This document shows positions 9,938-11,589 of a stretch of DNA of 64,000 nucleotides, piece after piece; position 1 is the stretch's first letter; each line of letters opens with the position of its first letter. The notes beneath the pieces were generated by a model. That model was given only the letters and a program-made list of their open reading frames with translations. It did no database searches and was not told where the DNA came from. The position numbers and the translations under genes were made by a program. The stretch is from positions 1-64,000 of the forward strand of contig NC_016943.1 in the NCBI RefSeq assembly GCF_000284015.1, written 5' to 3'. The DNA comes from Blastococcus saxobsidens DD2. GTDB taxonomy: Bacteria > Actinomycetota > Actinomycetes > Mycobacteriales > Geodermatophilaceae.

Positions 9938-9966
9938 GTCCTGGCTCACGGTCGACGGTGAGCCAG
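9938..9966. terminator. Hairpin downstream of the ABC gene, interrupted by an IS
   Basis: CTGGCTCAC (9941–9949) and GTGAGCCAG (9958–9966) form a perfect 9-bp stem. If the IS between 9967 and 11572 is removed, the arms extend to GTCCTGGCTCAC and GTGAGCCAGGAC, a perfect 12-bp stem around GGTCGACG. It lies between two convergent genes and was probably a bidirectional terminator before the insertion. There is no T-tract, which is common in actinobacteria. Confidence 0.65.
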
Positions 9967-10035
9967 CATCCTTGGCCTTGGCGGCCGCGCGTTCCGCGCT
10001 GAAAATGTGTGTCGGGTCGCCCGCCGACGCCGGTT

Positions 10036-10110
10036 GTCCCTGATCGTGGGAGGTCGTGAGCCAGCAGGGTGCCGAGGGCTGCGCCGTGGGCGCTTCCTTG
10101 TCGCTTCGAG
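10036..10110 (+). ncRNA. Candidate IS110 bridge RNA, target-binding region
   Basis: GTGAGCC within GTGAGCCAG (10056–10064) equals the left target sequence beside the IS (9958–9966). CGCCGT (10082–10087) is the reverse complement of the right flank ACGGCG (11574–11579). Between them GCAG and CTGC can pair, and outside them GGGAG (10048–10052) can pair with CTTCC. This gives an internal loop with a left guide on one side and a right guide on the other, as in the bridge RNA described for IS621. A donor-binding loop was not identified. Confidence 0.45.
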
Positions 10111-10188
10111 CACGCGGATCAGATTGCTCGTCCTGCCCAGCAGTCCTCGCGGGCGGCCCCCCGAGGGGTCGGTGAGAGCGAGGAGGTC

Positions 10189-11460
10189 ATGGTGCTTCAG
10201 GAAGATCAACAGGTCGAGGAGATCGTCGCCCGGGTGGCGGCGCTGGATATCGGCAAGGCCGAGCTGGTGTGCTGTGTGCGGGTGCCGCATCCGACCCGGC
10301 CGGGCAAGCGGATGCAGGAGGTGGTCACCTATCGCACGATGACCCGCTCACTGCTGGTGATGGCCGACCGGCTGGCCGGGCTGGGCGTCAGCGAGGTGGT
10401 CATGGAGGCCACCAGCGACTACTGGAAGCCGCCGTACTACCTGCTCGAGGCCCGCGGATTGAACCCGAAGCTGGTCAACGCCCGCGACGTCAAGCACCTG
10501 CCCGGCCGGCCCAAGACCGACAAGCTGGACGCGGTGTGGCTGGCCAAGCTGGCCGAGCGCGGCATGCTGCGGCCCAGCTTCGTGCCTCCGCCGAAGATCC
10601 GCCGGCTGCGCGATGTCACCCGCTACCGCGCCGATCTGGTCGAGGTGCGCACCGCGGAGAAGCAGCGGGTGGAGAAGCTGCTCGAAGACGCACAGATCAA
10701 GCTGTCGGTGGTGGCCAGCGACATCTTCGGCGCCTCCGGGCGGGACATGCTGGCCGCGCTGATCGCCGGCACCCGCGACCCCAAGGTGCTCGCCGCGCTG
10801 GCCCGGGGCCGGATGCGCGCCAAGCTCACCGACCTGGAAGAGGCGTTCACCGGCTACTTCACCGATCACCACGCCCGGCTGCTGACCACGATGCTGGCCC
10901 GCATCGACGGCCTCTCAGCCGACATCGCCGAGCTCGAGGTGATGATCGAGGAGATGGTCGCCCCTTTCACCGACGCGGTGGCGAAGCTCGATGAGATCCC
11001 CGGCATCGGCCGCGTCGCCGCCAGCGCAATCCTGGCCGAGATCGGCCTGGACATGAGTCGGTTCCCCACCGACGGGCACCTGTGCGCCTGGGCCCGCTTC
11101 GCCCCCGGCACCAAGGAATCGGCCGGCAAGAAGAAGGGCGCCGGCAGCACCGGCCACGGAAACCGCTACCTGGCCAAAGTCATCGGCGAGGCCGTCGCCG
11201 GCGCGGCGAAGACCGACACCTTCCTCGGTGAGCGATATCGCCGCCTGGCCCGCCGCCGCGGCGGGAAGAAGGCCATGGTCGCCGTCGGCCGCTCCATGCT
11301 GGTGATCATCTGGCATCTGCTGTCTGATCCCGACGCCCGATTCGTCGACCTCGGCTCGGACTTCCACGCCAAACGAACCGACCCCGACCGGCGACGCCGC
11401 GCTCACGTTCACCAGCTCGAAGCCCTCGGCTACACCGTCACCCTCACCCCAGCCGCCTAA
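10189..11460 (+). CDS. IS110-family transposase (DEDD recombinase)
   Basis: This is the recombinase of the insertion sequence. The 423-residue product has an N-terminal RuvC-like DEDD domain (about 18–185) with AALDIGKAELV, VMEATSDYW and RPKTDKLDAVWLAKL. Its C-terminal Transposase_20 domain (about 255–345) contains LDEIPGIGRVAASAILAEIG and GSTGHGNRYLAKV, with the conserved serine region. The ATG at 10189 is preceded by AGGAGG at 10181–10186; an upstream in-frame start would translate the non-coding left end. The gene looks intact, so the element may be active. Confidence 0.93.
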   Translation: MVLQEDQQVEEIVARVAALDIGKAELVCCVRVPHPTRPGKRMQEVVTYRTMTRSLLVMADRLAGLGVSEVVMEATSDYWKPPYYLLEARGLNPKLVNARDVKHLPGRPKTDKLDAVWLAKLAERGMLRPSFVPPPKIRRLRDVTRYRADLVEVRTAEKQRVEKLLEDAQIKLSVVASDIFGASGRDMLAALIAGTRDPKVLAALARGRMRAKLTDLEEAFTGYFTDHHARLLTTMLARIDGLSADIAELEVMIEEMVAPFTDAVAKLDEIPGIGRVAASAILAEIGLDMSRFPTDGHLCAWARFAPGTKESAGKKKGAGSTGHGNRYLAKVIGEAVAGAAKTDTFLGERYRRLARRRGGKKAMVAVGRSMLVIIWHLLSDPDARFVDLGSDFHAKRTDPDRRRRAHVHQLEALGYTVTLTPAA

Positions 11461-11589
11461 CCCCACAAGCGTTCGCCCGTCCCCGACTCGGCGCAGCCCC
11501 AAGGCCGAGCCGTCGGTTCCGTTCGCCCGTACCCCAGTCATTTTCGGGTCAGGACCCCACGTGGTGAGCCAGGACGGCGGGACGCCCGG

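Follow-up and report, generated by a model that had tools for sequence, protein, structure and literature searches.

An IS110-family element in a REP-like palindrome of Blastococcus saxobsidens DD2, with a candidate bridge RNA in which the right target guide appears to precede the left

The first 64,000 nucleotides of contig NC_016943.1 of Blastococcus saxobsidens DD2 (assembly GCF_000284015.1), hereafter the window, contain an IS110-family insertion sequence (IS) at positions 9967–11552. The element interrupts an intergenic palindrome resembling repetitive extragenic palindromic (REP) sequences and carries a recombinase gene, with non-coding stretches of 222 bp to the left and 92 bp to the right of this gene when measured from the mapped ends. 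Its insertion is likely to be RNA-guided, the left end encoding a candidate bridge RNA in which a right target guide (RTG) appears to lie before the left target guide (LTG). The element, its gene and the two parts of the interrupted site are as follows.

9967–11552, forward strand: IS110-family element, 1586 bp, delimited by comparison of five copies, orthologous empty sites and length
10189–11460, forward strand: recombinase gene, 423 amino acids, domains DEDD_Tnp_IS110 and Transposase_20 (Pfam, NCBIfam)
9938–9966, no strand assigned: REP-like palindrome with left arm, loop and the GTGAGCCAG half of the right arm, this half being the left target (core AG at 9965–9966), from palindrome and half-site searches
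11553–11575, forward strand: right target GACCC and the next 20-bp repeat unit GGTGAGCCAGGAC, flank and not element, from half-site search and empty sites

The recombinase matched the Pfam families DEDD_Tnp_IS110 and Transposase_20 above the gathering threshold (90.9 and 57.4 bits) and the NCBIfam model NF033542, 'IS110 family RNA-guided transposase', with 256.6 bits against a cut-off of 140, which bears out the original prediction of an IS110 element made from the DNA letters. The only solved structures that matched at E ≤ 0.01 were the IS621 and ISCro4 recombinases, both weakly. The E, D, D and S residues aligned with those of IS621 in a weak alignment, the first catalytic D (ALDIGK, residue 18) being placed by eye only, and the residue after the serine was alanine where the published motif has glycine. 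A search of the window with Rfam at the gathering score gave three matches, all tRNA, and the element was covered by no known RNA family.

The ends of the element were determined from its copies in the host genome, which was searched whole as one contig of 4,875,340 bases and contained five full-length copies with 99–100% identity. The left flank of all five ended with GAGCCAG, followed by CATCC; this flank read GTGAGCCAG in two copies and CTGAGCCAG in three. All five shared the right end TTTTCGGGTCAG followed by GAC (GACC in four, GACG in one) and then diverged; the element therefore spans 9967–11552, a total of 1586 bp that is also given by orthologous empty sites in five genomes of the same genus. 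The GAC that follows the right end is part of the target repeat in all five copies, and the dinucleotide AG is common to the left target and the right end in these copies and in nearly all relatives. One of the five, at 702820 (L003/L051), has a 15-bp tandem duplication of the right end.

The right-hand neighbour gene, encoding a DUF2867 protein, was located in 17 of 23 same-genus genomes, the host genome included. An uninterrupted composite of the GTCCTGGCTCAC type lay directly downstream of this gene in five of the 16 other genomes (G002, G017, G020, G021, G022), and the ABC-transporter gene on the opposite side was, by eye, also kept in four of these five. In four more (G001, G004, G007, G012) the orthologous place was taken by a composite that shared this layout and had a stem like GTCCTCCCTCAC, and the remaining seven had neither type. 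Excision of 9967–11552 in silico restored a perfect stem of 14 bp around a loop of 8 bases, and another repeat unit comes after it at a spacing of 20 bp. The original prediction had placed the right end at 11572 and a 12-bp hairpin at the emptied site; the perfect stem stands, its length becomes 14 bp with the corrected ends, and the five copies and empty sites put the right end at 11552. The short sequences to which it had pointed were all present as described (GTGAGCCAG at 9958–9966, 10056–10064 and 11564–11572, GTCCTGGCTCAC at 9938–9949, CGCCGT at 10082–10087 and ACGGCG at 11574–11579), and so was an exact direct repeat of GGTGAGCCAG on both sides of the element. The latter does not mark the element ends; because the composite is uninterrupted in the five empty-site genomes, GGTGAGCCAG belongs to the 20-bp repeat of the target. 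An exact direct repeat could also be a 10-bp target-site duplication or a terminal repeat of the element, but the 20-bp period is present in empty sites that lack the element and the other four copies do not all carry GGTGAGCCAG at the right edge at that spacing, leaving this explanation a next to negligible probability.

The target behaves as a REP-like sequence, being palindromic, intergenic, present in many copies and arranged in 20-bp composites. The host genome contained 15 palindromes of the form CTGGCTCAC-N(2–14)-GTGAGCCAG (control 0) and 53 exact GTGAGCCAGGAC sites (control 1), often in direct and inverted sets spaced 20 bp apart, and it is to this intergenic repeat that the second GGTGAGCCAG belongs, as its next 20-bp unit. 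All 15 palindromes with intact arms lay between genes (seven convergent, seven codirectional, one divergent) according to a crude gene caller based on G+C content at third codon positions (GC3), which for the window palindrome counted the open reading frame of the element itself as a neighbour. The palindrome was found in 13 of the 23 same-genus genomes, mostly without a close copy of the element. A repetitive intergenic palindrome fits the low-harm target envisaged when the site was taken for a terminator hairpin and a safe site, while a safe-site strategy as such is not demonstrated. REP targeting by IS110 elements has already been published for IS621, ISPa11, ISPpu9 and ISPpu10 (PMC1525189), and the actinobacterial palindromic repeats join these REP-like targets. 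The stem of the palindrome was near genome-specific: all 12 palindromes listed for the window genome (G000) had a TGGC form, and a TCCC form was seen in 11 of 12 listed in G001 and 5 of 5 in G007; G004 was mixed (4 and 3). One orthologous place can carry either form, depending on the genome, and the genome-specific stems look like concerted change of a dispersed repeat.

The left end was compared with those of relatives. A recombinase hit was obtained at 116 loci, and 46 hand-picked left ends were aligned, the alignment omitting repeat copies, group-2 elements and incomplete left ends (e.g. L072/L149, L085–L089, L109, L110). The features assigned to the window element, including a left donor guide (LDG), are given below.

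10015–10158, forward strand: candidate bridge RNA, delimited by closing helix P0 (10015–10023/10150–10158) of the conserved fold rather than by mapped RNA ends
10026–10072, forward strand: target-binding loop with stem PA (10026–10031/10068–10072) and hairpin PB (10041–10045/10052–10056), from covariation
10033–10041, forward strand: putative RTG strand, the 5′ strand of the loop, GTTGTCCCT, from a family-level signal that is weak in the window element
10058–10064, forward strand: putative LTG, GAGCCAG including the core AG, from guide and flank comparison over relatives
10065–10066, forward strand: dinucleotide CA, handshake-like and identical to bases 1 and 2 of the element (9967–9968), from comparison in 41 elements
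10074–10148, forward strand: helix P2 (10074–10081/10141–10148), enclosing the donor-binding region, from covariation
10099–10114, forward strand: hairpin P3, nearly invariant and directly 5′ of the donor guide, from the conserved fold
10116–10122, forward strand: putative LDG, GGATCAG, matching the right end GGGTCAG (11546–11552) at 6 of 7 bases, from pair comparison

The consensus fold was calculated with RNAalifold on 41 sequences, leaving out L047, L081 and L084, and consisted of helices P0, PA, PB, P2 and P3, with 95.9% of cells paired. A double change was present in 22 of 42 pairs (shuffled maximum 17), together with 63 further pair types (maximum 52). Double-change cells exceeded the shuffled maxima in P0 (22 against 20), PA (10 against 1), PB (9 against 5) and P2 (41 against 25); the shuffles, like the permutations used below, leave the relatedness among the sequences in place. 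Folding of the window stretch as a single sequence gave a structure partly different from the consensus. Two stems originally proposed in this region did not stand out from shuffled sequences, GCAG/CTGC being 67% paired against 67% and GGGAG/CTTCC 67% against 65%.

The comparisons showed that the 3′ strand of the putative target loop, consisting of the LTG and AG, matches the left target, that the LDG matches the right end, and that the dinucleotide following the LTG matches the first bases of the element. Positions 10056–10064 of the window agreed with the interrupted site at 9 of 9 bases. The left-flank test of the relatives, which omitted L047, L081, L090 and L148, used 42 elements forming 21 distinct classes of 7-base guide; one representative per class was searched against its own left-flank region, scoring 1 for identity and 0.5 for a G-U-type wobble. 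The 21 classes gave a total of 140.5 out of 147, compared with a mean of 102.2, a standard deviation of 3.3 and a maximum of 116 in 5000 permutations. A score of at least 6.5 of 7 was obtained for 16 of 21 own pairs and for 5 of 420 swapped pairs. With 9-base guides the two outermost bases were often mismatched, and at least 0.85 was reached by 14 of 44 own pairs, compared with 6 of 1786 swapped ones. The 14 copies in Kibdelosporangium philippinense have one guide, GCGTTAG, and are preceded by GCGTTAG in 11 cases and by GCATTAG, a G-U wobble, in three. For L091 the best left-flank match is possibly not the true junction, as there is a tie at ...GCTGAG/TCC, and for L165, whose flanks read as N, the target was comparable over the 7 guide bases only.

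The LDG, a CGGATCAG-type segment 3′ of hairpin P3, tracked the last bases of the right end at 86 of 91 positions in 13 distinct pairs, where the permuted maximum was 80; eight pairs were perfect and five had one mismatch. The dinucleotide after the LTG core agreed with the first base of the element in 41 of 41 cases and with the second in 90% of the 41, in the combinations TC/TC, CA/CA, CC/CC and CG/CG. This is reminiscent of the handshake guides in IS621, whose pairing with the partner DNA takes place once strands have been exchanged (PMC11208158). The putative guide was thus found to covary with target and donor, as in the IS621 bridge RNA. That the left-end guide equals its own left target, as originally predicted, is confirmed by the 21-class match of 140.5/147 against the permuted maximum of 116, and the covariation of loop and targets that had been suggested as a check on collected relatives was seen for the left target and donor guides.

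The Kibdelosporangium element L056 has a partial duplication of its left end. The junction falls precisely on the left guide of this element (GTGCGTTAG/TCAGTC), as though the DNA of the guide had itself served as the target. Target sequence can therefore come to be copied within a left end, as would be expected if the recombinase itself reads the target and the left-end copy is a relic of past insertions, not a guide. Against this, the 41 sequences of the covarying fold have the guide in the same place, and across the 21 classes it varies along with the target, the donor guide doing likewise, which makes a relic very unlikely.

With the LTG on the 3′ strand of the target loop, the fold places an 8–9-base 5′ strand opposite it that usually ends in CT, the complement of the core. 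At the level of the family only, this putative RTG strand was shown to have a tendency to complement the right target. Comparison of the 5′ strand with core and right target gave a z of 4.7 for the best of 16 register and length combinations, above all 500 permutations. In a blind scan of 173 positions using 5-mers in 31 elements, which like the pair count below omitted L081, L082 and L084, the 5′ loop strand came first (z 4.8), the next position having a z of 2.9. Contiguous pairs were counted in 24 representatives with distinct strands and distinct right targets, using 5000 permutations: at least four right-target pairs beyond the core were present in 6 of 24 (permuted mean 1.1, maximum 5; 0 of 5000 permutations), at least three in 8 (2 of 5000) and at least five in 4 (8 of 5000). 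The window strand pairs contiguously with the core and one right-target base, or with four if a C is bulged. The signal of the candidate RTG is real at family level but loose, and is claimed for the family and not for the window copy alone.

The published order of IS621 is stem, LTG, stem loop, RTG (PMC11208158), and the original prediction had matched the loop to this arrangement, with an LTG at 10056–10064, then a 3′ RTG CGCCGT (10082–10087) and an element end at 11572. CGCCGT is the exact reverse complement of ACGGCG at 11574–11579, but that flank lies 20 bp past the true junction, the right end being at 11552 and the right target being GAC in five of five copies. The CGCCGT columns were not complementary to the right flanks of relatives, with z values of 0.4, −0.2, −0.7 and −1.3 at the four starts printed, and the stems proposed with them were not conserved. 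Fold, scan and pair counts instead put the left and right guides on what appear to be opposite loop strands, and the IS621-type order is extremely unlikely here. Two further candidates for a right guide were rejected. One is the segment that follows the left guide on its 3′ side, TCGGACGCT in Kibdelosporangium; its partner in the fold is GACGYCG, with which it makes up stem PA, and position +12 gave a z of only 1.9. The other, GTCCTG (10130–10135), lies in the donor loop, and its reverse complement is exactly the target junction CAG/GAC; as an RTG, with the target loop pairing product junctions, it was not among the eight best of the 173 positions and is regarded as a coincidence.

Several observations weigh against a bridge RNA with the RTG in first place. 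For the right target, no clean diagonal emerged when the columns were first scanned one by one. The 5′ strand was tested in several registers, under permutations that keep relatedness. Fewer than four contiguous right-target pairs were present in 18 of 24 representatives (one in the window element, none in Kibdelosporangium), and right flanks vary freely among copies in multi-copy genomes (L054–L067, L101 group). No right donor guide was indicated by a scan of the left-end bases, which vary little. Clade is a partial confounder of the handshake signal, other columns of the loop associating similarly, and the window LDG is among the five with one mismatch to the right end. Hairpin P3 never varies, so it gives no covariation evidence, and the bridge RNA itself is a candidate known here from sequence alone. 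The few contiguous pairs and the variation of right flanks among copies of one element would suit a one-sided targeting by left target and core, in which the clade has the LTG and LDG as found but no RTG, and the apparent complementarity comes from a composition common to target palindromes and GC-rich loops. Such one-sided targeting is rather unlikely, given that the 5′ strand outranks every other of the 173 positions, that 0 of 5000 permutations reach 6 of 24, and that several matches occur in non-palindromic-looking sites of unrelated hosts (L068/L069, L166, L167).

The window element resembles IS621 of Escherichia coli (PMC11208160, PMC11208158) in the probable DEDD/Ser recombinase, the candidate left-end bridge RNA with target and donor guides, the core dinucleotide common to both ends, the REP target and the putative handshake-type pairing. 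IS621 has a CT core, a 9-nucleotide LTG and a recombinase of about 326 amino acids (group of 315–330), whereas the window element has the putative RTG strand first, the LTG on the 3′ strand, an AG core, a 7-nucleotide LTG including the core, and a recombinase of 423 amino acids with only weak sequence similarity. ISEc21 (seekRNA, PMC11187229) likewise has its non-coding region upstream of the transposase gene and an RNA matching both target strands; in ISEc21 and IS621 the bottom-strand match (LTG) is 5′ of the top-strand match (RTG), whereas in the window element the top-strand match appears to be 5′. The order of the IS1111 group (ISEc11, ISPa11, ISKpn4; PMC11187229) is also top-strand match 5′ of bottom-strand match, this group shares a subterminal inverted repeat (sTIR), and ISPa11 shares REP sequences as target. 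The IS1111 group differs in its downstream non-coding region, recombinases of 330–350 amino acids and an sTIR usually of 11–13 bp (range 7–17 bp). The window element has its candidate RNA upstream, 423 amino acids and an exact 7-bp sTIR at distances of 34 bp and 7 bp from the ends, which are not those of IS1111.

10001–10007, forward strand: left copy of the sTIR, GAAAATG, 7 bp, from sequence, 34 bp from the left end
11539–11545, reverse strand: right copy of the sTIR, CATTTTC, 7 bp, from sequence, 7 bp from the right end

The longer non-coding region with a candidate RNA upstream of the gene gives the window element the IS110-group layout, and the position of this candidate in the left end sets it apart from IS1111, which has its bridge RNA in the right end. 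The IS110-group guide order, LTG 5′ of RTG, was not found, the RTG signal appearing 5′ at family level and being weak in the window element. ISPpu9, ISPpu10, ISPa11 and ISRm19 (PMC1525189) share a fixed insertion place in a repetitive extragenic palindrome and differ in hosts and palindrome family. Recombinases of 395–455 amino acids are described as a subgroup of IS110 itself (PMC11187229); no description of the guide order in this subgroup was found in the open-licence texts, figures, including Extended Data Fig. 10 of PMC11208160 with six further bridge RNAs, being outside that scope.

In the mechanism proposed here, the RNA would be made, probably from the circle, and would bind the 423-amino-acid, probable DEDD/Ser recombinase. 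RNA and recombinase together would synapse target and circle at the AG core, followed by strand exchange, and the arriving end of the element may pair with the post-core dinucleotide, in the manner of the IS621 handshake. An RTG ahead of the LTG, together with a core AG that reads CT on the complementary strand, would be explained most simply if this clade read the site from the opposite strand to IS621. It is on balance probable that the actinobacterial IS110 clade with recombinases of about 423 amino acids uses an inverted bridge RNA of this kind, with the RTG on the 5′ strand, the LTG on the 3′ strand, the donor guide 3′ of its hairpin and an AG core. If this is true, the published split in order between IS110 and IS1111 would not follow the position of the RNA gene, bridge recombinases with a different geometry would be available from the long-recombinase clade, a source so far untapped, and placing guides by analogy with IS621 would misassign them in this clade, as in the original prediction. 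The guide, donor and end assignments are drawn from sequence comparison for a large IS110 group, for which no experimental RNA was found in open-licence papers, and they predict that 10058–10064 would set the left target and 10033–10041 the right target.

A second lineage in the same bacterial family, about 46–50% identical, was alike by eye in 11 of 13 loci. Also by eye, its loop has the left guide, e.g. GAGGTGT/GACGTGT, on the 3′ strand and a 5′ strand with AC, the complement of a GT core. More distant IS110 elements (L032–L053) lie after GAGGTGT-like sequences with a GT core and adjoin CTTGATCTTG, which seems to be a third repeat of palindromic type. Related elements of Blastococcus and Geodermatophilus (L026–L031, L052, L077–L080, L083) are inserted in another palindrome, with the sequence CTGAAG-GCGG-CTTCAG, and in its flip. 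The distant IS110 element L047 (51% identity) directly adjoins a CTGGCTCAC hairpin of the same REP-like repeat family as the window target.
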